From the NCBI RefSeq assembly GCF_905475395.1, contig NC_058339.1, positions 8,936,001 to 9,000,000 on the forward strand: a stretch of DNA of 64,000 nt, given 5' to 3'. Below, in pieces: positions 38,601 through 64,000 of the stretch; the first letter of the stretch is position 1, and every line of letters begins with the position of its first letter. The DNA comes from Chrysoperla carnea (lineage: Eukaryota; Arthropoda; Insecta; Neuroptera; Chrysopidae). The notes below the pieces were generated by a model that saw nothing but the letters and a program-made list of their open reading frames with translations, made no database searches and was not told the DNA's origin. A program made the translations under genes and the position numbers.

Positions 38601-41600
38601 TTTTACGAATCATTCGATTTAATTCATCGATAACATCTTTTGAAGTGGCCCGTTCATGAAAACTGACAGCTCGTTCTGGTGGACCTTCAATTACACTACA
38701 CGCTGGTATACCACTACTCGCAAATTGTGGTAAACGTTCTGAAGTTATCACAGGTTGTACTTTTTTCTCCGCTTCTTTTTTCACAATTTGTACTACGGTC
38801 GATTTATGTTTATATGGTATTCGACTTTTTACTGGTTTTTTAGTTGTTTCAGTTGTTTTTGTACTGAGTGAGGAAGATTCTGGTTCTTTAATCGGTGGTG
38901 ATTTATTACAATTTATTGGTATATTTGATTTTGGAATTTTTGATCGACGTGGTATTCGACTAACAATTGTATCTGGTGTTGATACACTTGATGTAAATGA
39001 TTCTGTTAATGTTGTTGGTGGTGAAGTTTCTTCTTCTTCTGGTACAGTAATTAAACTACTATTCACTCGAGTTGAATTTTCACCATTTACAAGATCTGGT
39101 GGAGTTATTATATTGTTGATTTCACTTGAAATTTTTAAATTTCCACTATTTTGTTTTTCAATAATATGAATATCTAAGGATACGCCATTGCTTTTATTAA
39201 ATGGTTTACTAGATTTGATTTCCGTACTTGAATTCTGCGATTGCTCACTATTCATTTTATCATCTTTAAAGACAGCATTTACAATACAATCTGGTATTTG
39301 TAAATCCTTTAACGTGTTCTGTTCATTTAAAGCTAATTCATTACGTAAATGTTGAAAGCTTACGTAATTTTCACTATCACTATAATTTTCATTCTTATAT
39401 ATTTCATCTGTGTGTTGAGATTCAATTTCCGATGAAAGTGGTTCTGTGCTTGTACATGAATCAGTCCATATTACTTCCTCTAATCTCGATTGTGGTGGTC
39501 CCTCAATATTAAAATCCCTAGCTGACGATGGTCGCGAATCACGATGTTCTTGATTATTACAATACATTTGTTGTTCGGCGATAAAACTTAATACACTTTG
39601 TAGAGTTTGTTCACGATCAAATTGATGTTCTTGTTGGCCAGTTCCACGTGATGAACACGACGCAAGGCTTTTTGTGCTTTCAAATTTAACAAGTCGGTAA
39701 AAATCTCGTGTAAAGTTTGTACCAATGACGGGAGCGTCATCACTGCAGCCACTCATAGCTGCAGATGATCTTTTGGAACATGGATCATCTTCAGAAACAC
39801 TTGACCAACTTTCGGGTGGTGAAGATACATCATGACTTGCAGCATATGGCCAAGATACTTCGATTTCACGTCCTGTTTCCGTGTCCATTAATAAAGATAC
39901 TAATTCACCACCTGTACGATCTGCTAAATAGCTAGAATCATTCCATAAACACTCACTAGAATCTTCTTCCAGTTCAACAGTACTTCCTTCTTGAATGCTC
40001 GGCAACGTAGCAATTGAGACTTGACCAGGAGTTTGTATTGGTTCTGTTATTTGGGTATCACGTACATCTTCCGCTGAAAGACTTAGGCTCCAATCTTCTA
40101 ACTCAGCACGATCGTATTCGAGTTCTAATAAATCTCTATGCTGTTGTTGTAAATTTGATCTAGTTTCATCTAATTTTAACCAATGTTGGATATACTCGGA
40201 GTCCCAATGTTGATTAGTTGGTTCTAAATCAAGATTACTACCCCATGAATCTACAGGCGCTAATGATGCATTGCCTCTAGTTCGACGTAATGGGTTTACA
40301 TCTAATAAAAGTACGCTTGGTGTACTAGTGATCGGCGAAGAAATCGAATAACAAGGAGATGGCGCCGTTGTAATTTTTATACATAAATGTGAATCAGAAA
40401 AGCTACGCATTACATGTTGGAACGGTAAAAGGTCTTTTGTTGGTGGATAACTATTTCTAGGATTTATTCTTAATGCTAAATTAATAGGTATATATAAAAT
40501 ATCGGATTCAGTTCGATCTTGTACATCGACTACAATAAATCGTTTTTCAGATTGTGTATCGGCAGTTTCATCAGTTACTTCAGCTAAATCTTCTAATCCA
40601 CGATTCGGCTCACTTTGACTTCGATTTACTTCACCTTGTACGTCAGATGACATTGTTGAATAACCTTCATCACGGTTTCCACTTTCTGGAGATTCGCTAC
40701 CTAATTCTTCTTCGGGTTTATTTACCAATGTTCCTAAACAAAAGGAGAAACATATCAGGCATCAAAAGAACACATGTCAGACCAAAGTTGGAAGGAAAAA
40801 TACCAGGGCTGTCTTAACCACATTGGGTGTCGGGATGTGAAAATCGGATTGCGCCCCCAAGACTCTACACTCAGGTGCCGCTCACTCCTTACAACCCGAG
40901 GTTAAGACGACCTTGATTAAAAGAATAATTTTGAAAATAGTAGAAGACCATATTGGACGAGAAGAAATAAATACTTTTTAAATAAACTTACCAACTATTG
41001 GTCTTATTTTTTTATTAATACTTCGGTTACAAGATGATTGTTGTAAATTCTGAGGCAAGGTTAAATTTAACGTAGCAGGCCTTTTTGCTGGTAAACCTGT
41101 AGTAGTCCATAAATTTGATTCTAAAGCACTTAATGCATTTAACAACTTTTGTGGTGTAACTTCTGAACCCTGTAAATCTTTCCATAAATCTGCTAATACT
41201 TGATGTCGTTTTTTATCTTCCAAAGATAATCCATTATCTTCACATGAATCTAATACATTGGCAGATAATCGTTTCTCACTAATACAAGCAACAAGTTCAC
41301 CACTTGGTAAAACTTTCTCATTATACGATGAAATTAAATCGCCAGTTGAAAATCGTTTATCAATATTACGATTTTGTTGAAAATTAAATGAATTTGAATG
41401 TTTTAAATTCGATGATATACGTTCTTCAGGTGGCGAATGAAATAAACTACCGGGGGAAGACAATGCTGAATTTGTTAAGTCATGTATATCACCATCTAAT
41501 GCTAATTGTTCACCAGCTGAATTTGGTGTAATCATTGCCGATGAGGGTGTACTTCCCGTACGTAACTGTTGCACCAATAAAGATGTTAAGGCACGATTTT

Positions 41601-44600
41601 GTGTTTCTAATTCTCTAATACGACGTGTCAACGAAACAATCTCTTCTCGTAATGTCTTTTGTGATAATAAGGCGCGTACAACCTGATTGGCTACATCATC
41701 TAAACAACGTTCATACTGATTACGAGCTTCTTGTACTTGTCGCTGTAGTGTTGCATTATCTGCTTCTAGTGCAGCAATACAATTCTCTGGTGAACCTGAT
41801 ACGGATTCTAATTGTTGACGTAATGTTGATACTTCTTGACTTAACCGTGCAATAGTAGCTTGATAATGTTGAGAACGTGCCTGAAACAAAAAAATTTGTA
41901 TATGAGAAAAGGACGAATAATTAATTAATTTATAAACAACCGACTCGGCATCATTCCTTAGTAATATTAAAATTTTCATTCCACCAAGTCTTATAATCCC
42001 AACAAAATTGATCGGCAAATTGAAAAATTCGCCTAAAACTTTATCCCCCAAAAAATAAGCGGTCAAAAGAGTAATTTTAGTATATAGGTTTTTCAACACC
42101 CCTAAACAGAGATAAAAGAGTGGAGGACTGAAAGAAGAGCAGAAATATTTGATCGCATAGTTGCATAGGTCATAACACATTATTTATGACATTATTCGTT
42201 TAGTTTCATTTAGCATTAATAGATGGTACTGCATGTATTGGATCATAGCTTTGATAATAGTTTCGTTTAGTATTCATAGATGTCATAATAAAAAAGTTTT
42301 CCATATGGAGCCAACTTATAAATAGACACACTGTATATAATAATAATATAATAATTTAATAATCACTAGTTTTTCAAAAGATATTATAAGATATTAAATT
42401 ATTATAATATACTTATTTCTTGTAATAAATTTAGTAAGTATATAGAAGTAATGAGAATGATAATTAAGTTATAATATTCAATTACGTAGGGGATAAATAT
42501 AATCATTTATATATTTCAAATAGTATATAAGAATGTATTTAGTTTAGAGGGTGGAATTAATCAATAGAGCATTAAAATTCCAGTTAGAATTCAAAAAAAA
42601 TTTATATCAATTTAATAAACTATTATTATATCTTACTCTATGGGTAATATTAAGTATTAGACGAGTGTAGGCTTATGCTTCCCAAACAAATTTGTTTAAA
42701 GCTTTTTGAGTTAGCTGCTTCTAGATAGAAGTGTAAGTCCATTAAGCTCGAATTTAATGCGGAAAAATTTTAAGCCAAATTGCGATAGACAGTTTCTTAT
42801 TACAATATTAAGGGAAAATTTTTTTTGGCGCATGTTAATTATCAACTGTTGAGACGTTAATTTTACAGGAAGAATTAAATTATTATAGAATGGAATATAG
42901 TCTATTTTATTAAGCAAATATTCAGCAATTATAAAATGTAAATTTCTATTAAAAATTTTTAAAAATTGGCGGATCAAAAATAGTAAATAAGTCATTGAAG
43001 TACAAGAAAATAACCTGCTAATTGAAAATGTGATCCATTGAAACTGAGCCTTTGGTTCGATCAGTTATAAATTTATGTAGAGATTTAAGTTTAGATGGGT
43101 AATATCTGATATATGATATTTTTGAAAGGCCCAAAATAAGGTAAATTCATTTCTAGAATAGAAATTTGAGTGAAAACAGAAAACAATATGTAATTTGAAA
43201 TTTGAATAAACATTATAATTGCATAGAAAACTGAGTGTAACTAGGGTGAAACATGATCATCAGTTTCCAATTGAATTTTAAGGTTCAAAATCTTGCTTCG
43301 TTAAATTTAGAATATGCTATTATTATTTAATTTATATATACAGGGTTGTTTTCGCTAAACGACTCGGAAGATTATGGCTAAACGGCTTGATTTTAAGCAA
43401 ATTTTCTTTCAGGAATAGATAGAGGATTATTGACTGTACATTTTAAATTGGATGGCGGCATAAGTTTGCCCTTTTTCTATATAAATGTTTTTATACCATG
43501 TATATGGAATATACCAAGGTATACTAAGTTTAGTCCCAAGTTATTGATACTATGAACAAAATTTTGATATAGGTGTTCATAAAATCACTTAATTAGTCCA
43601 TTTCTGCTTGTCTGCCTGTCTGTTTGTCTGTCGTCTGTCATCACGATTACTCAAAAAAGTACATGGTATTTCAACAATTTACTCAGTCAATTGTTTGTTT
43701 TCACTTGTTCTTTATTAAAGTTTTCTAATTTATAAAAAATAATGCAAGCGCTGATATTTAACACATCTATACCGGGTGTTAAAAAAATTAAATCAGTAAA
43801 TTGTTTATTTTCTATTCGTAAAATTCGAGTTATATAAATTCAGTACTGTTTTGTGTCACCCTAGTTGCAGAGAGCCTTTTGAACACTATCATATGATAAA
43901 TATACAAGTTGTGTAGTAAACGAATTACATTCTTAGTCATATTATTTAATTGAGTATTGTTAATTAGACTCCCCACTAAGTTATTACAATAACAAATATT
44001 CATATTTGTAACACACACATAAATCTATCGTTATTAATGAATAATATCAAGTGCAGCTGATATTATGAATGAGCAATTTTGAATGCTCATTATAATCATC
44101 TGTTTAAAATATAAGGGGTTGTGTGTTGTAATACTTTATTACTAGAATACGTATTATACAAGCAGTGCTTTGTCATTTAACTCAACAGTATAGGTGGAAT
44201 GTTATAGCGTGGGATCAAATCACGAATGGAAGGTAACTACACTCATGTACGCATAAAACCTTGAATTTGAATCTTAAAAGAAATTTTAAAAATGATTTCC
44301 CTCTTTAGTAAGAAAGAAAATTGAGTGGGTATATCATGTAAAAGGCATAAAGATGGTTAAATACATGAACAAGAACAAGACCATAGTCATCTTGATATTG
44401 GTCTTGCATTATTAGTTTTAGAGTTCTATCAAAACTAAGTGGCACTGAACAAGAGAGAGTATAGATACGAGTGAACATACATATACATCATACACTCTCT
44501 CTTGCTCGGTGCCACTTTGGTTTGATTGAAGTCTACTCTTGGTCTGGAAAAAATATACCTTGCCTCTAGCAGAAATGAGGCTTGGTCTTGTGAAAATTAG

Positions 44601-47600
44601 TCTTGGTCTTACTAAAATAATCTCAGTCTTGATCTTGGTCGATCGACTCTTCCTTGGTACTTTTAAGTTTCGATTAAGTTATAATTGTATTATTTCAGAA
44701 ATTTTACTTCTTACTATTAATAATCATTACAAAATTAATCAATTATCTACATATATTTTATTTACTAGCTTGATACCCGCCCGTTTCATCGGGCTTAAAA
44801 GTAAAAACCACTGTTATAGTTTCCACCTCTCTTGATCGCACTTATCCCCCTCCCAGAACACTCAGAAAGAATCGTTTTACACAGCTAAAATATATGCACA
44901 GTTTTCAATTTTTTAAAGTGTAAAATAGTCATAATTTATTGAGTATTTCAGAAAAAATGGTCATGGAAATGACTCAAAATGATTCAAAGAATAATTCAAA
45001 AACAAAATGGAAAAAAGTGCTACTTTGAATTCTAGGCAATAATTACTTTACTGAAAGTGAAATTTGCAATAAAATCTGGTAAAGGGATATAGATATACGG
45101 GACCCTTAATAATTGCATCAACAATTAATTCAGTAGACTGAGTTAATTGTTGAAATACCCTGTATAGAAAGTGTTGAATAGCAGTGATTGCATTATATTT
45201 TATAAATTAGAATAGTTTCAAAAACCAACATAATTATATATTGGTTTTCGAAAATTTTCGAAAGTATTTTCAAGAATTTTTTTTTGAAATGGACTAATCA
45301 GCTGATTTTATGAACACTTGTACCAAAAATTTGTTCGTAGCATCAATAATTTTAAGTGTTACAAGGTTGGGATAGATTAGAGATTCTATCCTGGGGTGGG
45401 AGTCCTACCATAGGACACATTTAGAACATAGAGAAATGTTACAAACTTTCGACTAAACTTAGTATACCTTGATATATATTTCAAATATACAGATATTGAT
45501 ATATAATTTCATATATACTTATGAAGGTATGTATAATGGTTATATCGAAATACATATACTGGAGTAAATCTAAGCAAAAAAAGGCTGTTATATGGATTAA
45601 AAGTTCGAGCAATGAAACTTTGGGGTTTTTCTTTTCACATCAAAATAAGTATTTTTTGAAATTTTTTACTTTCCCGGAGTGGTGCAACATGTTTAAAAAA
45701 CAAAATGGCGTCAAAAATGAAATTTTTTTCAGAAATTTTATCATTTTTATTTTATATTCGCAAAAGGAGACATCGGTGCATATCCAAATTTGGTAGGTTT
45801 GTAGTCAATGTTAAGAACTACTCCTCATATTTTTTTGGTGGGGTTTCGTCCCTTCCCCTCCCAGTTATATATATATGTATACATACATATGGTAAAACAG
45901 TTCATTTGACTGTAACTTGAAAAATATTCGATTGATTTTAATGAAACTAATATCAATAGTAGGTTTTATTACTTACAACTTTCGGTTAAAATTTTAGCGA
46001 AATCCGTTAAATAGTTCGGCCAAAATTTCCAATTTAGGGAATTGTTTAAAATGGCTGCCATTTTATGCCATTTTGTCCTACGAGGTTAAATTTTTTTTTA
46101 AATTGTAGCATTTTTTATTATCTTTCGATTTTATAATAAGTGACTTACCCGTAAAATGACTCCTTGATCCATATTTTTGCGAAAAACGGAAAATTTAACA
46201 CTTTCTGGAAATAATTGTTTGGGGGGTGTATGGACTGGCTTTGGGGGGTGTTTTTTGCTTTGGCATGAGAAAACTATTTTTAAAAGAGGTCTATATGGTT
46301 TAAAGCAAAATTTTTAAGTTTTAACCCCCGCGCTGTAAGGGGGAAGGGGTGTATGAAATAAATGTATCTTAAAAGATTTTAAAAAGAGGTCAAAATAGTT
46401 TAAAATGCTAAAGTAACCCAAAATTTTAGCTGTTTATATTAATATAGCACTTTTTACAACATCCACCCCTTCCGCTCCCCCTTTCATATTTTTTGCAAAT
46501 TCAAAATTTTTAGGACGTATAAAGGGGTTTTTGGGGTCGCTGATCTCGAATTTTGCAATAGATTATCAAAAACAATTGTAATATTTTTAGGGGGTGTACT
46601 TATTTGGGCCAAAAGTTCGAGATCAGCGACCCCCAAAGCCCCTTTATACATCTTAAAAATTTGGAATTTGCAAAAAATATGAAAGGGGGAGCGGAAGGGG
46701 TGGATGTTGTAAAAAGTGCTATATTAATATAAACAGCTAAAATTTTGGGTTACTTTAGCATTTTAAACTATTTTGACCTCTTTTTAAAATCTTTTAAGAT
46801 ACATTTATTTCATACACCCCTTCCCCCTTACAGCGCGGGGGTTAAAACTTAAAAATTTTGCTTTAAACCATATAGACCTCTTTTAAAAATAGTTTTCTCA
46901 TGCCAAAGCAAAAAACACCCCCCAAAGCCAGTCCATACACCCCCCAAACAATTATTTCCAGAAAGTGTTAAATTTTCCGTTTTTCGCAAAAATATGGATC
47001 AAGGAGTCATTTTACGGGTAAGTCACTTATTATAAAATCGAAAGATAATAAAAAATGCTACAATTTAAAAAAAAATTTAACCTCGTAGGACAAAATGGCA
47101 TAAAATGGCAGCCATTTTAAACAATTCCCTAAATTGGAAATTTTGGCCGAACTATTTAACGGATTTCGCTAAAATTTTAACCGAAAGTTGTAAGTAATAA
47201 AACCTACTATTGATATTAGTTTCATTAAAATCAATCGAATATTTTTCAAGTTACAGTCAAATGAACTGTTTTACCATATGTATGTATACATATATATATA
47301 ACTGGGAGGGGAAGGGACGAAACCCCACCAAAAAAATATGAGGAGTAGTTCTTAACATTGACTACAAACCTACCAAATTTGGATATGCACCGATGTCTCC
47401 TTTTGCGAATATAAAATAAAAATGATAAAATTTCTGAAAAAAATTTCATTTTTGACGCCATTTTGTTTTTTAAACATGTTGCACCACTCCGGGAAAGTAA
47501 AAAATTTCAAAAAATACTTATTTTGATGTGAAAAGAAAAACCCCAAAGTTTCATTGCTCGAACTTTTAATCCATACACAAGGCGTAATTTCACTCTACTA

Positions 47601-50600
47601 ATATGAGTGTATCCATGTCACCACTCTCAGTACTTAAAAACTGTGTAATATTAGAAGCATGAGTTGGCAAATATTTTGAAGGGTAGAAAGTTTTATTGGC
47701 AATCTTAAAAAGATTATTGAGGGTAACAAACATGTATTTTTACTTTTGAGAAGATTTTTAATAAGCGTCATCATCATCGTAATAAATACATTCACTATTA
47801 TTATTATTATTATATATTTATTTTTAAATCATAATATCATTTTTATTATTATTAAATTTCTTACTGATTTTTCCCTTCTTTTTTGCAGAAAAATGCATTA
47901 ATTAAACAAATTAAACTTTTTGATTATTTTAAAAATAGTTGTATTAAGTATTTTTATTTATTAGTTGGGGTTCTTTATACCCTATGTAAAGAGTTTATGT
48001 TTATTCTAAAACTTCTAACGAATAGAAATATTCACAGAAACAAAGTTTTTGTGCAAGGAACAAATTTTTACAATCATACTTTACAAGTTTGTGATCAAAA
48101 TTAGCCTAGTTATAATAGGTTTTAAGAATGTGGAGTCCTGGTCCCGGAATCAAGCACATAAGTGATAGCTAGCGATCACTTATTAAACTGGCATCATAGC
48201 TGAAATAAATGACCCAAAATTAGTGGTTTTCAAAAAAAATTCCAATAAGATTGGATCAAATTTGTCTGTGTAATCAAAAAAATCGAATTTTTAAACTTTA
48301 TGACGTCATCAGAATCCAAAAATTTAATTTTGCTCTATCACATCCCAATTTTATTCAATTTTGATAAATCAAGTATGTAATTCTACTAAATTTGGGTCAT
48401 ACTTTTCAAATTTGTGATAAAAATTAACCTAGCTCTAATAGGTTTCAAGAATGTGGAGTCCTGATCCCGGAATTCAGCACATAAGTGATAGCTAGCGAAA
48501 AAGTCACATCACAGCTGAAAAGAATGACCCAAAATTATTGGGTTGCAAAAAAAATTCCAATAAGATCGGATAAAATTTGCCAGTGTAAGCAAAAAAATCG
48601 AATTTTTAAACTTTATGACGTCATCAGAATCCAAAAATTTTCTTTTGCTCTATCACATCCAAATTTTATCCAATTTTAATAAACCAAGTATGTAATCCTA
48701 CTAAATTTGGGTCATACTTTTCAAATTTGTGATCAAAATTAACCCAGCTCTAATAGGTTTCAAGAATATGAAGTCCCGGTCTCGGAATTAGGTACATTAA
48801 TGATAGCTAGCATAAAAATGACATTACAGCTGAAAAGAATGGCCCAAAATTAGTGGGTTTCAAAAAAAACTCCAATAAGATCGGATCAAACTTGCCTGTG
48901 TTATCAAAAAAATCGAATTTTTTAACTTTGTGACGTCATCAGAACCCAAAAAATTTTATTTTGCTCTATCACATCCAAATTTTATCCTATTTTGATAAAT
49001 CAAATATGTAATCCTACTAAATTTGGGTCATACTTTTCAAATTTGTGGTCAATATTAATCTTGCTCTCATAGGTTTCAAGTATGTGGAGTCCTGATCCCG
49101 GAATTAAGCGCATAAGTGACAAAGAAGGCTATGGATATACATAATGTATACAATTTTAATATGACTAGAATTAAAAATAATAAAATAATATTTTAATAAA
49201 AAGGGTTCTTTATATACGTCACTAGTCGTCTTAAATACAAATAATAAAAAGAAGAAATCTAACGTTAATTGAACATCCTTGAAAAGTTTATTATTTTAGT
49301 GGATCTTCTTATAAGAGTGAAAATTAATTTTACTATTATCTATCATAAATAAAGGTACCACCTTGAATTTAATATGAATGAAAATCTAAAGAAAATTGGA
49401 AAGTTTTATAAGGGAGATCATCATCAAACACTTATGTATTATCACTGCCAACGATAACTTTTCTAAGTTAATAAAGTTTAGGCCTCTAAATGTCTGTTTA
49501 TAAGAAAACATGTGAACAAAATTTATGAAAATTAACTCTACTGGATAATTTTCTTTATGTGTTGCTAGACTTTTCTCCTGTACTAGTACTTATCGATTAG
49601 GCAGGTGATATATTACGAAATTATCGGTCGCAGAGGTTGAATTTGCGAATTATCATATTTTTTGTTTTAAATAGAGATTGGAACACTTTTAGAAACTGTG
49701 CATTAATAATTTTTAAGAGCTATGCCTTTTTCATGGAAAATATGATCCCAATATCATGAAAAATTAACGCCAATGTTCCTCTAAAAGTGATATCTTTTTT
49801 ATGACTATAGATTATAAAAATCACTTAAGGATGTATGAGCACGGTAGTGGGGCACAAATTTAAAAAATATATATTTTCAATTTTGATAAATTATATTATA
49901 ACTTGACGATATAAAACCAAAAGTAAGAATAAAATTTTTCAATATCTGGCGTAATTTTCAAAATATCAAAAATTGAAAATTTTGTTTAATTATTCAGCTT
50001 TCGATATTTCGAAAACCAAGGCACATATCGAAAATTTTTATTCTTATTTTTCGTCTACATTCATGAAGTTATAACAAAATTCATCATTAAAGTTGAAAAT
50101 AAGATAAAAATAATTTCAACCCTAAATCTACCCTGCTCTTACATCCCTTATATGGACGGAGACACTTAGTTTTTTTCTTTTCTATGTCATTGCTAATATG
50201 TTTACTTTCTATTAAAAAGTTTTTTTTTTAAATTGTTTTCATTCATTCCAAATGAAAATTATCAAAAACTTCCAAAATATGTCGTTTTTTGAGATTCCTC
50301 CATAAGAGCCAATGTATTTTATATCGATTTTTAATGACTTTTTTCTTAAAAATTTGCACGGATACCTAAGCTGAAATTTTAACCACATATTCTTTGAGTA
50401 AAAGTCTACCTATAAACAAATTTCGAGCCTTTAAATCAAACATTGTTGTCATGCTCATACATCCTTAATTGAGGAAGCTTATATATAAAATAAATAATTT
50501 TTTAGAAATTCACGTTAGCATGTAAATAGACATGGGTAAAAAGTTTTTTATTCACACATGTTATTGATAGGATGTTCTACGTTAGCATTTTTATCCGCTG

Positions 50601-53600: not shown

Positions 53601-56600
53601 TATATGTACACATATTATGTATGTGTTTGTTTGTTTATTACTATATCTACTTATAAGATGCTCTTATTACTTTGTATGTAAGAGTGACTATGTTTCTTTA
53701 CTTACATGACGTAAAAAAACAAATAATGGTATAAGCTTCCTTGAAAAAAACCGTTCATGGTAAAAATTGATTAAAATTCATTTAATTAAAAATAGCCATG
53801 AACACTTTTCGACAGAACCTTATAGACCATTAATAACATTTATAAAATGGTACATTTGTTTTGCATTATTGCTATACTTTTTTATCAAAGAGTTAGTAAA
53901 TTTACAAACTTTTCTGACAGTGTATTCTTTAATAAATACGATGCGAAGTCACAGTTAAGAGGTTTTATTACTTAATGATAAATTGAAATTCCCAGTAAAT
54001 AAAAACTATTCACATACCATCAACAATATCTCCTCTAATCATCAAATAATAATAATAATAATAATAAATATTATGATTAGTTCTAAATGCTAATGTGTAC
54101 ATTTTTTTAATGCATCTGTTTTCATTATTTCGAAATATCCCTATAAGTGAAATTGCAAACACATTGAATAGAGGAGAGTATAATAATAATAATAAAAGGT
54201 CATTTTATGCAGACATATATACGAGTATAATATTGTCATTTTGCAAATAGGGTCTGCCCTGTTCCATTATGCAAACTATAAACATACTCTCAAGTTTCTG
54301 AATAATAATATTACAGAATGGTCTACCAGAAAAAATTATAGAGAAAATAGTTTTAGTGTTCTGAGATTAATGAAAAGAAGTAGTATATTATTAAAAATTC
54401 AGATAAAAATGATCTGAGACTGAAAACCTGTGCTCGCACGTCCTTTTCGAAATAGAAAAGAAATGTTTTTACTTATACAGTCTCTGCTGGCTTAATTCTG
54501 ATAAGGAACCATTTATAACTGCGTGATTTACGAATTGGTTAGAGATTGGATTAAAAAAATTGCGACGCCGGAGCATGAGGAGATTATGATTTAAGCTAAA
54601 AAGTAAATAAAGCTTTAGAACGTTAGAACAAGAGAATATGTTAGTGTTTCCAGCTTCCAGTTGCAAATATCTTTACACGAATGACATCTGTATGTATTAG
54701 GATTCAAATCAAAATAGTATTCGCTTCGTGGATGAGTTTTCTTTCAGGCAGTCACCATAGAAACGACACACTACTTTATTAATATAATTTTATGGATGGA
54801 TATATAAGTCTATAGATTGTATATATGCTTCAACAATTATCCACTGGACGCGCTGGCGTATATCTGATTCTCTCCATGATAGTTATGCACAGAGTCAAGA
54901 AGGCGTTTTTAACTCAATTTACTTCAAGGAAGGCACTCTTAACAGTTTGAGTGATTAGTCACAGTACATCCTGTAAATCTATTGAATAGGGTGATTTTAT
55001 AGTGTGCTATTAAAAAGCGTGACTAAATGAATGAAATGCAACTTTAAAATTATTATGAAAAAATAAAAAAAGTTTTGATATAAAACTTATATGCTATCAT
55101 CCCATTTTACTCAATAGAAATTATTCCAACACAGTTTTCCACAGTTTCCCAACTTGTTTTTCTTAAAATTAGCCCAAGAATATGCTTCTAAATTTTGTGT
55201 ATTTACTTAAGAAACATTCTGTGTATTTATTATTTTCAAAATTTTTAATTATTGTTCATTCGAAATTTTTAGAAAATGGTGAGTTTTTCATTTTGATATT
55301 ACAATTCCAAATGAATACCAAATTTTTCTTAAATCCTAGAATACCGAAGTAATATTAATGAGACGGGTATTAAAAAGAAAATTAATATTTTAAACAAAGG
55401 TTATTATTCCTTTTTTTGCATTTCTCTTAAGTGAAAAGTAAGAGTTAAATATTATATAAAACTTTAAACCTTATATTTTATACAATAAAATGTACCTACC
55501 AACCACTGTTACCTCTACCGTTCTCTAACGTTTTGAAAATATTAAGGGTTGCAAGTAAGCAAGAGAATTTGTTTGCATGCAACCGCACAACCGAATGTCG
55601 GCTTCTCAGTTCCTTCCTTCCTTCCTAGTCCAATACGAACAATCCCTATACATAACACACCTAAATTATCTTCATATCCCTTTTCTAAAAAGTGGTGGCT
55701 ACTACTATTATATTATATTTTGAACATAACAACAATGAAATAGCAAACTCATCCCAAATACAAACTTGTCATGCCTGTAAGGTACTGTATGTTACAACTA
55801 ACCTTGGCGTAGTGAGCTAATACCTAAAGTGAAAAGGAAGCTGATAATAAATCAAGCAGGTTTTATCTGTTTACTCTGTTCACACTATCACAATTGTACA
55901 AGAGTTTAATCACTTCAGAGTTTGGATGCTGTTCAATTCGTGTCAGGTATCTTTCACTGAAATGTGCAATTTCATCCCGCACTGTTACAATTTCGAGACT
56001 TCGGTAAATATCGTCATTACGCACATACCACGGAGAATCACTAATTGTTCGCAACATTTATGATTGAAATCCTTGCAGAATTTCGATATTACTATTGCTA
56101 GGAGTTCCCCACAGCTGAATGTCATAGGTCCACACAGGTTTAAGTATTGTTTTATACACTAAAACTTTATTGTTCAATGATTAGAATTTTAACCCAAGAG
56201 TCAGTATAAATTAGAAAATTTCAAGTTTAGCTGTTTTCATTTCAACCAGATGTGTTTACGTCAAGTAAGTCTTCTATCAAGGTGTATACCCAAATATTTG
56301 ACTTCATTTGACTGTGGAAAACTGACACCGTCCATTATAACAGCTGGACACGTTTCTTTTCTCAAAGTGAACGTTGGGTATGGGTATGGAGGTTAGCGGA
56401 CCATGCTCGAGCATCGGGCCTCGAAGCAATGGTTCAGAGCACCTAGCCAAATAGACCCTTGTACTCTATGCCCGCTACGCTTTTCAGTGGCTATTATAAC
56501 CAACTGATGTACTGAAACCCAGGATCTGCCTAGCGCTGAGTTTCCTAATTTCTTCAGGTTCGACTATGGCCGGACCAAACCATTTCCTTCGCTGCTGTAT

Positions 56601-59600
56601 GAGCGCCGGGCAGTAACAGAGAAAGTGAATCGATGTTTCTTCTGAATTTTTTCCGCATCTGTCACACGCGGGAGATGTCTTTTTCCAATCTGATGTTGGA
56701 ACTTGTTCAGGTTATCATGCCCTGTGAGAAACTCTACGATGACTCTAATATCAGCTCTGTTTAGTTTCAAGATCTCCTCGGCTCTGTTACCGAGCGAGTT
56801 TCCTTCACCCAACAGGCTTTTGGCGATTCGCCCTCCCTCGTAGCTGCTCCATGCCTTTAATTGTTGGTTTTTCAGATTACCTCCTAATCTGTTAAGACCT
56901 TCTCAAAGTGAACGTTACTTGTACGGATTTCATATCGTTAACTTGAACACACCACTTATTCAACCAATATTGTATTTTATCGATACTTGTCTGCAATTAC
57001 TTATCTGAACACGCTGTATGAAATGCTTAAATAATAATAAAGTGAAAAACCTTACCCTCCTTAAAAAGTGTGGTCATACACACAATCGTATTAAACCGTG
57101 CATCAGTGAATTTAAAAATGTTTCACAACATACATATAACAAGCTTTTAATCCTATGGAATTTTTAATAAAGGTCTCCAAGTCCTTATTTATTTATACTT
57201 TTTTTTGTTGTTACTACATTTATACATAACATACTAAAATATAATCAAACAATACTTAAATGTAATAAGACCATTTATTTAATGAGTTTTATATATTTTA
57301 TATTGGATTCACGACCCATTTTAGTCCCGAAAAAAGGATACATAGTAAAGTAAGTAGATATTAGTTATATAAAATATGCTTTTATAATACATAAAAGTTG
57401 TTAAAAGTATGTAAAAATATAATTTTTAAGTAAATTTGCATATTATTCGATTTTATTTGAATATAATCGAGTCTTTTACAGTTAACATTTCTAAAATAAT
57501 TTAATATTTTTGAAATATATCGTTAACTTAATTATTCAGGAAATGTATTGTATAGGATGTACAACATTGATCGCATATGGGCTATCAAATGATATAGTGT
57601 ACGATTTTTAATGGTTTTTTGATCCGAAATTACTGGTAATCCATACTCATTATTAGTATTCATAAGAAATGGAAAAAGAAACGCTTTAAGGACTTTTCAA
57701 CCAAAAATTCTATTTGCTGTTGGAAAAATGCAGCCATTCTTGAGTAATCGTTTAAGGAAAATAATACTCGTCAGTCGAACTGTGAACTTAAATGATTCGC
57801 TTTCTTTGACTGACCATGGATGGGGCTATTAAATATGATTTCATTTATTAAATATGAAAAACAGAAAAATACCCAGTCAACAAGTGAAATTTACAAAATT
57901 TAAAAGACCTTAAGCTAAACTCGCACTTAAAACATATCTTAGAACACTCTCGATTAAATTATCTAATTCCTTAGGCCTTCTACAAACTGAATCGATTTTG
58001 AGGATCATAGCCTATCTTTTAATTGTCCCGGGTACGGAACCCTAAACTCGCACTTGAAACATACTAAGAACACTCTCCATTAAATTTCACTTCATCCGTG
58101 TAGGCGCTACGATGCCACAGACAGATAGACAGACACACACACATAATGGTCAAACTTATAACATCCCTTTTTTTGGTTCGGGGGTTAAAAATAAACGCAA
58201 AACTTAAAAAATTCGAAGTATTCTACCATAAAATTACATGTGATTCACATAGCATGTTATAGTTATAACACTTAGAATAGTAAAACACGTGCATTTTTTG
58301 ATAAAGAGTAAAAATGAAACCGAAAAGTTTAAAATTTTATTTTCTCTGTACGGTTTATGAGAGATGTGCTCTTTTTTGGGTAAAAACGCTGTCTTTGATA
58401 GTTAATTTCTTTCTACTAAATCGTACATAGAATCGTTATGAATTTTTCACAAAAGACGTATTAAAAGATGAATATAATTGAATAAAATTTTAAAATGTTG
58501 GTATCATTTTTATTGAAAATTTTTCATAAATAATATAAGAACATTTCGTTTTGAGGTCTTACATTGTTTCTTGAAAGGTTGAAGGTATTTCTGATTTGAT
58601 AATAAATATCTCCTGATGAAACTCTTTATATTTCGTGTAATGTTTTTCTAGTTATCATGTTACCAATATGGGCATTAAAAAAAGTATCAGATAGTTATTT
58701 TCAATAAAATTTGTAATAAAATATTGGATTTCCCTATTACATATACAGACTAATGAAAAGGGGATTGAAAATAATAAACATACAAACCAAAATTTCATTT
58801 AAATTTGTAACAAATATAAATTTTAAAATCCATTCGTAAAATGTTTTATCAATCCGGTACCACTATACATATAATTTTCAACCCCCCATTGAAAATGAAG
58901 TTGAGTTGTTTGCTGCCCCAATATACAAAAACGCATTAATAAACACTACCCCAATGACAATCATATGAAATATTCTTCTTAAACACACACAAGCATAATG
59001 TCTGTTCTTTTTTATATCGTTGTATTAAACTAAGTGTAGGTAGAAAAAGATAATCTTATTGCACTATAATATTACTATTTGTTTTTATTTACACTTAGTG
59101 TGCTACACCGAATTGGAAAGAACAGATGAAATTTAGTTGGATGTTTAAATGGTGGTTTTTAAGTTGAAGAGCTATTCTATGTACATGCCTTGTCAGCTGT
59201 ATGAGCTTTAGGTATACGTATGCAAAGAGAGCTAATAGCTTTTTTGAACTATTGTATTTCTTTATTGTATTGCGGTTTGTTGGTGTTATGTGTGATAGAC
59301 TCAACTAAATACCGATTTAACAACAACATCTCAAAATAAGTATATACACTCTCATAATAAGAGAATGCAGTTTATAAGTAACCCCTCTCAGTATTTTATC
59401 TTCAAATATTTCCTACCTTTTCAGTAAGGGTTTTGAAATTCGTCAATTCAAAAAATTAAGTCAACCACATGGAATTATAGCACCCAAAAAACTTGCCAAA
59501 TAATACAAAAAAAATGTTGTAATACTTTTGTTATCGATCGCCCCCCCCGCGTGTGACAGATGCGGAGAAAATTCAGAAGAAACATCGATCCACATTCTCT

Positions 59601-62600
59601 GTTACTGCCCGGCGCTCATACAGCAGCGAAGGAAATGGTTTGGTCCGGCCTTTGAAAATTCACTACTGGAATTGCCAACAGAGTGAGAACCACCTCTCAA
59701 AGTAGATTGACAAGGATAGTAAATATCAGGGCCTGGTCATAATACGCATGTTTTAATATACAACGTAATATCCTGGCGCGTATTTTAAATAAGATTATAC
59801 CCTTTGAAAATACACTACATTTTAAAATACATGATCATACGATCATATGATCATATGAAATGTCAATTTGAAATATAAACACATCATTGAAACAGCTGAT
59901 TCCGGTTATACGATCATGCCTCCTTAGATCATATATTTTAAACAGGCCTCCAACTATTTTCATCTTTGTTTATCTACTCTCATCTTTGTTAATCTACTCT
60001 GTGACGCCAAAATACATATACTTGGTATACACTGGGCTCATCCATTTAAAATATATGATCTAAGGGTCCGGCCATAGTCGAACCAGAAGAAATTAGGAAA
60101 CTCAGCGCTAGGCAGATCCTGGGTTTCAGTACATCAGTTGGTTATAATAGCCACTGAAAAGCGTAGCGGGGATAGAGTACAAGGGTCTATTTGGCTAGGT
60201 GCTCTGAACCATTGCTTCGAGGCCCGATGCTCGAGCATGGCTCGCTAACCTCCATACCCATACCCCCATACCCATTTGTTGTCGATTGAATATTTAAGGA
60301 AGTTCCCAAAAAATTTACGATTACTTAGCATCGTCTTTAAATCTTGTATCTGCATTTTCATTAATGCTCTTTACAAGCAGAGAAAATTTCTTAATACCCC
60401 TTATGGCGTTAAATTTTTAGTTTTAGCTCTTAAAGTTTGCATTTTTAACATATAAATACTATTTTGAAGTGTTTTTAGAAGTATCTATACTTTATGATGT
60501 AACAAGGCTAATTTTCTTAAGACTAATTTGGAAAACTAATATTTATTAATTAAAAGCATGGCAAATATTTTCCTATAAAGAAAAATATAACAAGCGGAAC
60601 TCATTTTTCCATAAAATACATTTACAGTGATGAAATGATTGGCATTTGTGTGTTATAAATGATTTTCTCTAAATCTTTAGGCATCAATATTTCAAAAACT
60701 ATAGTATATATCGAAAAAAATTTCGCCCTAAAAATTATAAAAGTTTTGAAAATGTTGCTGGCTAGACGCTAAAGAAAATGTCGAATTTCAACAAAACAAG
60801 AGTGTTTGTACTTTATTTTCTTGTAATAAGTGCCTACAGTAAGCAACACTAGTAACTAGCTTTAGGAGAAGAGCCCCAGGCCACTTATAAACATCTACTC
60901 CACTGTCGAGTGTTTAGTATGTTTGTACGTGTTTTTCTCTGGGTTTAGGGTAGTGTGGTAGGTTGTGCATACATTTTTATTTATGAGATATGCATGTTTT
61001 TGATATATTATGAGTCATACATTTATTTTTTTTAAAGTTAAAAAGCTTCTCTGAATTTGAAAGATTGTTATTTATGTTACATCTATTTATTATTGTTGTG
61101 TTGTTTATTCTTCTAAAAATCTGTTCTGCATAGACAAACGCTGAATAAATGATAATTCTTAATATTATTAATAACACTAAGTACATTTTGCCATAAAATC
61201 CACCTTATTTAAGCGAACTATCCAGAAATTTGCGATAAAAAAAATGCCTTAGCCAAAACTTTTATTTTTTACTTTTTACATATACTTTTTTTTTACTGCA
61301 TTATACCTACCTAAGGTAGTGAGACTTCCCTAGCTCGAAATCAAAATAGTTCTAAAATTTGAAAGGGCCCCGCACGATTAGATAGGAAAATTGCTTTCTA
61401 AGAAACTTTTTCAAAACGTCCCCAAATTATTCTCCGGATCGTCCTGATCAAAAGCTCTCACGGCCACAAAATTTTTTAACGAGTTAGTTTTTGTTTCGTT
61501 TTTCATTATGTATTTAATCGAAAATAACACGCATATATATAAATATCTACGAAAATGACCCCCATCCTACTGTGCAACTTTTGTTTCAGTTATTTCCTCC
61601 GAAAACGACATATTTTAATAGTTTTTGACAAATTTTACTTGGATTAAAAGAGACAAACGAAGGGCAAAAAATTTTCAAAAATAGAAAGTCGGGTAGTTTT
61701 TGTTTTTAATTTAAAGTTTCAAGCATTAAAAACCAAAAACATTTTCATTTAAGTATTGTAACAAAACTGAATACAAATATAAATGATACTCCAACTAAAT
61801 ATATGTTTATAGAATTAAATATATTTCAATTTCAAGACGGAAATTACAAAATACTGATATGTCAATATAAATGATTGACATGACGTATGTATATGTTCAA
61901 ATTCAACATGCTTATATTATTTATATGATAAGACACTACTGTTTCTTTCTCGAAATAGAAGTCTTTATTGTAAAAATCAAACCACTGAACTTGTGTTTGC
62001 AAATAATAAATAAGGGAATGAAAAACCATCGTCTGTTTTTTAAAAATCAAGTATATTTATATATTCTTTAAAAAAAAAAAGTATCATATACCTAAAGTTA
62101 ATATATCTACCCTCATTTGTTCAAAATATCCATCCCCTTTTGTAATCTTTCTGTTTTTTTTTTTTTTGGGGAAATATTGATTATACAAATAAAATGCAAA
62201 AAAAAAGTAGAAAAAAAATTAATAAATATGAAAAATATTTGTTGGAGATAAAGAAGACATAACAATATGATATACATATTTTTACAATTAAAAATTCTTT
62301 GAATTCTATGAATTTTCCATTTAGTTAGGTTGTGTTATTTTACTACGAATAAGAATTCTCATTGAACATATTTTATTATAGTACAGAAGACAGTGTAGGG
62401 TCGATAACCAGATCTCATCTGGTTATCGACCTATCACCTATAACCTATCTGATAACCAGATGAGACATATTTTTTTATGAAATTTTATTGATTTGAACAC
62501 GTCTACAATTTTTTGCGTAACGGTTTTCGCAGGCTGGCTTATACCATTCTTTTCGTAATTAAATTATTTTTCTTCTGATCCCAATTTCGATTGGTAAACA

Positions 62601-63220: not shown

Positions 63221-64000
63221 TACTGGAGTAAATCTAAGCAAAAAAAGGCTGTTATATGGATTAAAAGTTCGAGCAACGAAACTTTGGGGTTTTTCTTTTC
63301 ACATCAAAATAAGTATTTTTTGAAATTTTTTACTTTCGCGGAGTGGTGCAACATGTCTAACCAACAAAATGGCGTCAAAAATGGAATTTTTTTCAGAAAT
63401 TTTATCATTTTTATTTTATATTCGCAAGAGGAGGCATCGGTGCATATCCAAATTTGGTAGGTTTGTAGTCAACGTTAAGAACTACTCCTCATATTTTTTT
63501 AGGGGGCTTTCGTCTCTTCCCCTCCCAGTTATATATATATGTATACATACATATGGTAAAACAGTTTATTTGACTGTAACTTGAAAAATATTTGACTGAT
63601 TTTAATGAAACTAATATCAATAGTAGGTTTTATTACTTACAACTTTCGGTTAAAATTTTAGCGAAATCCGTTAAATAGTTCGGCCAAAATTTCCAATTTA
63701 GTGAATTGTTTAAAATGGCTGCCATTTTATGCCATTTTGTCCTACGGGGTTAAATTTTTTTAAAAATTGTTTAAGTTGCATACCCGTAAAATGACTCCTT
63801 GATCCATATTTTGCGAAAAACGGAAAATTTAACACTTTCTGGAAATAATTGTTTGGGGGGTGTATGGACTGGCTTTGGGGAGTGTTTTTTGCTTTGGCTT
63901 CAGAAAACTATTTTTCAGAAAGGTTTATTCCGTTTAAAACAAAATTTTTAAGTTTTAACCAGCGCGCTATTAGGGGAAAGGGGTGTATGAAATAAATGTA
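63221..64000 (+). mobile_element. Third copy of the palindrome arm, single orientation, continues past the window
   Basis: It starts at TACTGGAGTAAATCTAAGC and follows 45557 onward with scattered substitutions and a deletion near 63770, including a diverged version of the 71-codon ORF (63369-63584). Upstream of the 91-base exon of the NCKAP5-like gene. Confidence 0.85.

Follow-up and report, generated by a model that had tools for sequence, protein, structure and literature searches.

The window, the whole stretch of 64,000 nucleotides of Chrysoperla carnea DNA analysed here, contains a full-length copy of a palindromic, non-autonomous element of 2044 bp (45557–47600, plus strand), which is recognized by its tips, its arms, the trinucleotide ATA present on both sides as the left and right target-site duplications (45554–45556 and 47601–47603, no strand) and a length that matches 41 of 86 pairs of element tips on contig C1. 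An inverted-repeat search delineates arms of 979 nt (45576–46554 and 46612–47590) that are 99% complementary, with 57 nt between them. Base-by-base comparison of the arms yields an uninterrupted stem of 909 bp, the perfect part of the left arm (45594–46502, plus strand) pairing with that of the right arm (46664–47572, minus strand); the arm mismatches, at 46503, 46513, 46516, 46528, 46532 and 46551, are all loop-ward of this stem. A sequence-only reading of the locus had described a near-perfect 2-kb palindrome with arm differences only close to the spacer, and it was right on both counts, all mismatches falling between 46503 and the loop. The inner arm ends and the loop of ~57 bp make up an asymmetric centre (46503–46663, plus strand) that occurs in either orientation among the copies.

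Outside the stem, the left tip (~34 bases) and the right tip (~25 bases) differ in sequence, so that the element has unlike ends (TACTGGAGTAAAT.. on the left, ..TTCACTCTACTA on the right). The unique left tip, TACTGGAGTAAATCTAAGC..., spans 45557–45590 (plus strand), the match to the opposite arm beginning at query position 35, and is represented by an exact 19-mer; the unique right tip, TAGTAGAGTGAAATTACGCC... when read inward, spans 47576–47600 (minus strand) and is defined by exact 20-mer matches in the genome. The earlier boundaries of the palindrome, 45557–47575, are thus retained at the start and prove slightly short at the end, the element with its unlike tips extending to 47600. A second, more diverged copy of the family starts at 63221 (63221–64000, plus strand), with ~91% identity to the first over its first ~1270 bp; it has lost part of the right arm (element positions ~1275–1529), runs past the window end and continues as the sample L051.

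Two other features were noticed in the window. A tandem array of ~3.3 copies of a 315-bp unit (48074–49119) adjoins the palindrome. The ORFs at 56484–56902 (minus strand) and 59504–59705 (plus strand) have near-identical peptide stretches in common, PACDRCG.NSEETSIH.LCYCPALIQQRRKWFGPA, which by eye resemble the final portion of an ORF for a LINE reverse transcriptase; Pfam returned no family for the 56564–56902 reading.

The palindrome had been read from the sequence as part of a transcribed intron in a minus-strand gene and as a possible hairpin-RNA locus, in which the host-intron transcript would fold to a ~900-bp duplex and might give rise to Dicer-2 siRNAs silencing the family. The inverted repeat can form a long duplex RNA according to the folding prediction: the minus-strand RNA, with its 909-bp perfect stem, is predicted to form 988 pairs with an MFE of −1640.5 kcal/mol. 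A similar fold would be expected for the transcript of any full-length copy and is not special to the window copy. The genome holds hundreds of related sequences, and hairpin RNAs are a known source of siRNAs in flies (Okamura 2008, cited in the available part of PMC12076837). The surroundings of the palindrome offer no recognizable flanking exon pair: in a thin search of the window ORF list, no exon was recognized beyond the palindrome on the far side, and the closest long ORF of the minus strand towards lower coordinates (40978–42183) has a CCD48 match below the cut-off (21.6 vs 30.4 bits). Moreover, the window copy has no stop-to-stop frame longer than 98 amino acids and thus offers no transposase message as a target for silencing. 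In the accessible text of the Aedes aegypti endo-siRNA study, these RNAs are only auxiliary for transposon expression, and long hairpins are named as a possible gap (PMC12076837). The structure is accounted for by transposition and arm recombination without any selection for the RNA. The window palindrome is, then, a possible intron-borne siRNA source, and a dedicated silencing locus appears unlikely.

Copy number, ends and integrity of the family

When the left arm (960 bases) was searched against the source genome (559 Mb, 337 contigs) and 40 of the 1309 first-look candidates were scored, matches with 98–100% identity were found on all six large contigs, in agreement with the earlier proposal of a dispersed family; further copies with paired arms are among its members. 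Exact tips were counted genome-wide, yielding 389 left tips (19-mer) and 409 right tips (20-mer), compared with 0 for the reversed control of each; these counts put the family at ~400 copies. Fifty copies were taken for comparison, L001–L030 being those that best matched the arm of the window copy and L031–L050 a positional sample, namely the first 20 left tips on C1. After the removal of L031 (site identical to that of L011) and of L003, L007, L048 and L050 (no right end in reach), 45 two-ended copies remained.

All 45 two-ended copies are flanked by a perfect 3-bp target duplication (for example, TAA on both sides of L049), and in all of them the element starts with TACTGGAG and ends with CTCTACTA, i.e. 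has TA..TA termini. The targets are AT-rich, the duplication sequences being TAT in 10 copies, ATA in 9, TTA and TAA in 3 each and others in 20. The full-length palindromic form is present in 32 of the 45, and most of the copies read share the anatomy of the window copy.

The distribution of lengths was obtained by pairing the listed tips of C1 up to ~122 Mb (99 left and 100 right), with pairs allowed up to 15 kb and with the exclusion of left tips located past 122.0 Mb, where the list of right tips ends (6 from the list of 100 and 1 further). The 86 pairs, which may include one double count because the left tips at C1:60963269 and 60963625, separated by 356 bp, share one right tip, comprise 41 of 2040–2056 bp, 45 shorter ones (63–2025 bp, including 7 that fall short of full length by no more than 50 bp) and none longer up to 15 kb. 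Another near-perfect palindrome lies at C3:11242490–11244362; on either side, its matches do not start before arm position 35, so that it may lack the unique left tip.

The recurrence of this length bears on another explanation, in which a single arm was mirrored by an error of assembly or by a chimeric read. Whole-genome amplification and some long-read chemistries are known to generate palindromic chimeras. Such an origin is contradicted by the equal end-to-end length at 41 of the 86 C1 tip pairs, by flanks that differ from copy to copy and carry matching 3-bp duplications, and by the asymmetric centre and the unlike tips. The earlier view that the palindrome is no artefact, taken from the mismatches near the loop, is borne out, and 32 of the 45 two-ended copies have the full palindromic form. 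Because the family repeats the same end-to-end length and palindromic form, chance and chimera are excluded as its source, the probability of an artefact being negligible. Rather than a device of one gene, the 2-kb palindrome represents the form that a mobile element usually takes.

Shortened copies are common. The positional sample L031–L050 comprises 8 full-length copies, another of 1998 bp, 8 that lack large internal segments, 1 consisting of joined tips only (63 bp) and 2 half copies. On C1 up to ~122 Mb, 13 left and 15 right tips are unpaired, and 9 of these 13 left tips were examined: L033 has a changed right end, L003, L048 and L050 are half copies, and L057–L061 were sampled at 231 bp each. 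Among the latter, L058 and L059 are palindromic, and L057, L060 and L061 have no long match to the element within 231 bp of the left tip, L061 being single-copy.

The breakpoints are not confined to one part of the element. The half copies L003, L007, L048 and L050 end at element positions 964–995, and the deleted copies L002, L011, L015 and L033 have one edge at 989–998, near the stem-loop junction at ~998 (unrefined BLAST edges in both cases). Edges at the junction suggest that extruded hairpins may be opened or cleaved, or replication forks may stall, at this place. Centre-spanning deletions without a junction edge are found in L032, L034, L041, L042, L046 and L049, many edges lie away from the loop, and part of one arm is lost in L018, L043 and L051. 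In yeast, according to the available text of PMC6103520, inverted repeats separated by short spacers adopt fold-back structures that are processed by MRX-Sae2; analogous fold-back processing might be the route of the deletions here.

The longest stop-to-stop frame of the window copy does not exceed 98 amino acids, and no recognizable gene was found in any copy read. Given that no tip pair is longer than the palindrome either, the family appears to be non-autonomous. A search of the window and L001–L050 for an autonomous partner, with the 9-base core tip motif (at most 1 mismatch), a 3-bp duplication and ends 60–7000 bases apart, gave 47 pairs, all of which are the family itself; nor did the C1 tip coordinates (to ~122 Mb) reveal a longer copy, no pair exceeding 2056 bp. 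The transposase families PF07592 and PF13683, searched in the genome, showed no link to the element tips. PF07592, the ISAzo13-like transposase expected of Zator elements, had no match in the genome, but the search controls were silent too; rve_3, standing for the integrase-like DDE transposase expected of IS3EU/GingerRoot elements, had 31 matches, none tied to element ends, with the best 11 in a bacterial-looking stretch. Beyond this genome, a 29-base arm pattern had 0 matches in viral_contigs and a 24-base arm pattern had 0 in the bacterial and archaeal genome_contigs.

The bacterial-looking stretch is an observation in its own right. The 11 best of the 31 rve_3 (IS3-type integrase) matches cluster at 138.28–139.24 Mb of C1, a contig of 139.98 Mb, and a full-length bacterial 16S rRNA match (1191 bits) is located at C1 139382497–139383821. 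The region at 138.28–139.38 Mb looks like ~1 Mb of DNA from an endosymbiont-like bacterium, either joined to the contig end or inserted close to it.

Arm divergence and centre orientation

The arms were compared over alignment columns 50–900 in 32 full-length copies (24 from L001–L030 and 8 positional), with the 13 shorter copies dropped. The two arms of the same copy differ by 0.56% on average (range 0–2.6%), compared with 2.06% between the left arms, 2.11% between the right arms and 2.09% between the left and right arms of different copies, in a sample that leans to the subfamily of the window copy because 24 of the 32 were chosen as best matches to the window arm. None of 10,000 random arm pairings in a permutation was as low as the observed own-arm difference. 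In a midpoint-rooted tree, the own arms are sister rows in 29 of the 32 copies; when sequences are ranked by plain distance, the own arm comes closest in only 21 of the 32, and some copies have well separated arms (2.6% in L029, 2.3% in L030). Across these 32 full-length copies, the two arms show concerted evolution, which offers an explanation at the DNA level for the arm identity of the window palindrome.

The distribution of individual variants adds to this picture. Private variants, found in a single sampled copy, occur in both arms in 100 cases and in one arm in 96; variants common to several copies account for 136 two-arm and 54 one-arm occurrences. As judged from bit scores, the own arms of L045 are ~4 substitutions apart and the nearest other copy is ~15 away in both arms, and L039, with identical arms, has a sister copy on C3 that is ~4 and ~6 substitutions away. 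The two-arm alleles of L039 are mostly common to this sister copy, which implies that two-arm variants can be inherited and need not have arisen in place.

The orientation of the centre was scored in the same 32 full-length copies, with the unlike tips as the frame. Fifteen copies have the centre in the orientation of the window copy, and 17 have it reversed. Thus, the centre inverts: it is found both ways round about equally often. At least 9 orientation changes are required on the copy tree, compared with a mean of 10.95 for shuffled labels; because 40 of the 300 shuffles were as low, the orientation is indistinguishable from random with respect to kinship, on a tree that is itself weakly supported (3 of 29 inner branches starred). 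Among the 8 full-length copies of the positional sample (L035–L047), 7 have the reversed centre, and with a weakly resolved tree, mixing of the orientations need not be complete. All 13 columns with consistent arm differences (at least 20 of the 32 copies on each side) are at element positions 957–1010, which indicates that the innermost arm ends and the loop act as one non-homogenized, inverting block.

Taken together, the concerted arms and the inverting centre are best explained by recombination between the arms. A different source of arm identity would be transposition itself: a hairpin or single-stranded intermediate would be copied, with one arm templating the other, so that a fresh insertion would begin with identical arms and with its loop in random orientation, in a rolling-hairpin-like manner. 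The near identity of the arms in most of the 32 copies, the many private one-arm changes (96), the nearly random loop orientation and the two-arm alleles that L039 and its sister copy have in common would all fit such a cycle. The 3-bp duplications and unlike tips, however, resemble the common cut-and-paste reaction, conversion between inverted repeats requires no new enzyme, and the tips and the innermost arm ends are not homogenized; this rolling-hairpin-like cycle is judged quite improbable. The fuller version of this idea, a eukaryotic element with rolling-hairpin-like arm templating that spreads via a hairpin intermediate, an arm being resynthesized on its partner at every transposition, is given a still smaller chance.

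Proposed mechanism and what the family can report

The preferred reading, to which a probability of roughly 0.8 is assigned, is that of a foldback-type DNA transposon without a recognizable gene that is moved by a transposase from elsewhere, with arms that recombine with each other and a centre that is inverted by crossing over. The transposase, probably encoded at another place, would recognize the two unlike tips, each of which has TA at its end, and would insert the whole 2-kb palindrome with a 3-bp stagger, leaving the 3-bp duplications observed. The arms would recombine with each other, either in place or at transposition, as the pattern of differences suggests: conversion would carry changes from one arm to the other and keep the two nearly identical, and crossing over between them would flip the asymmetric centre, which would account for the about equal frequency of the two orientations. 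The innermost ~45 bp of each arm escape homogenization and travel with the loop as a block in the 32 copies. Finally, copies decay through deletions in the palindrome, possibly by hairpin opening or cleavage or by fork stalling at the junction.

Long perfect palindromes are generally counted as some of the most unstable genomic sequences. This palindromic element nonetheless occupies hundreds of sites, and about half of the 86 C1 tip pairs are full length. Each copy has a built-in readout, in which the unlike tips provide the frame, the asymmetric centre reports inversion, the arm differences report conversion and the truncations report breakage; the family is, in this respect, a natural test bed for the recombination and breakage of long palindromes. 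Comparison of individuals or sister species would provide natural-germline rates of palindrome inversion, conversion and deletion, and the same comparison would tell correction of the arms in place from correction at transposition. Full-length copies would also supply double-stranded RNA wherever they are transcribed.

Comparison with known systems

The palindrome family is a foldback-type non-autonomous transposon with unusually clear centre flipping and arm matching. It belongs to a known kind of mobile element, whose palindromic form is here unusually regular. Two long inverted repeats surround a short middle (979-nt arms, 57-nt spacer), and the dispersed copies have target-site duplications (45 of 45, 3 bp). 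Two other assignments were rejected: a MITE, on account of the 2-kb length (the MITE size class lies below 2 kb), and a local inverted duplication, on account of the dispersed copies with 3-bp duplications. FB elements have tandem repeats inside their arms; the arms here contain only 10-bp units in at most 3.6 copies. Such repeats are not strictly defining, being present in Tetris (PMC4079207) and absent from many Galileo groups (PMC3573991), as far as the available text of these papers goes. Among the matches listed in the open-licence literature, no palindromic element with a flipping centre was found by title or by the start of the abstract.

Several Drosophila elements come close to this anatomy. 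In the available part of PMC3573991, the Galileo 2T/2RT elements of the P superfamily are, like the family described here, non-autonomous with very long inverted repeats (in Galileo, up to 1,260 bp), and Galileo likewise has large structural variation and solo-repeat copies; unlike here, it has 7-bp duplications, copies with transposase sequence and widely varying arm length. The foldback elements Tetris/DAIBAM of the Drosophila virilis group also appear, from the accessible portion of PMC4079207, to be non-autonomous with long inverted repeats, whereas the duplications of Tetris are 8–10 bp and its arms contain ~220-bp tandem repeats, compared with 3 bp and no such array in the present family. 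What sets the present family apart from Galileo, in turn, is that its form of 2044 bp recurs, its duplications measure 3 bp, its tips are TA..TA and its centre lies either way round.

The termini and target duplications resemble those of several transposon superfamilies one feature at a time, and the family is assigned to none of these. The target duplication of PIF/Harbinger elements has the sequence TWA, to which the duplications here are not confined. Their duplication length of 3 bp, given in the accessible part of PMC12730594, fits. IS3EU/GingerRoot elements have the same TA..TA termini, but their duplications are usually 6 bp in the part of PMC10045372 available, compared with 3 bp here and no copy flagged as matching at 4 bp. 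Zator elements are among those with 3-bp duplications (PMC10045372), the likeness being one of duplication length. Chapaev3 elements, as described in the available text of PMC4079192, have 5'-CAC termini and TWA duplications, in contrast to the TA termini and the many kinds of duplication in the present family.

For the behaviour of the arms, the closest parallel is with the palindromes of sex chromosomes, in which gene conversion likewise proceeds from arm to arm between inverted repeats, as reported in the accessible parts of PMC3403216 and PMC7023750. Those palindromes are large; here, instead, the palindrome is a mobile family present in hundreds of copies.
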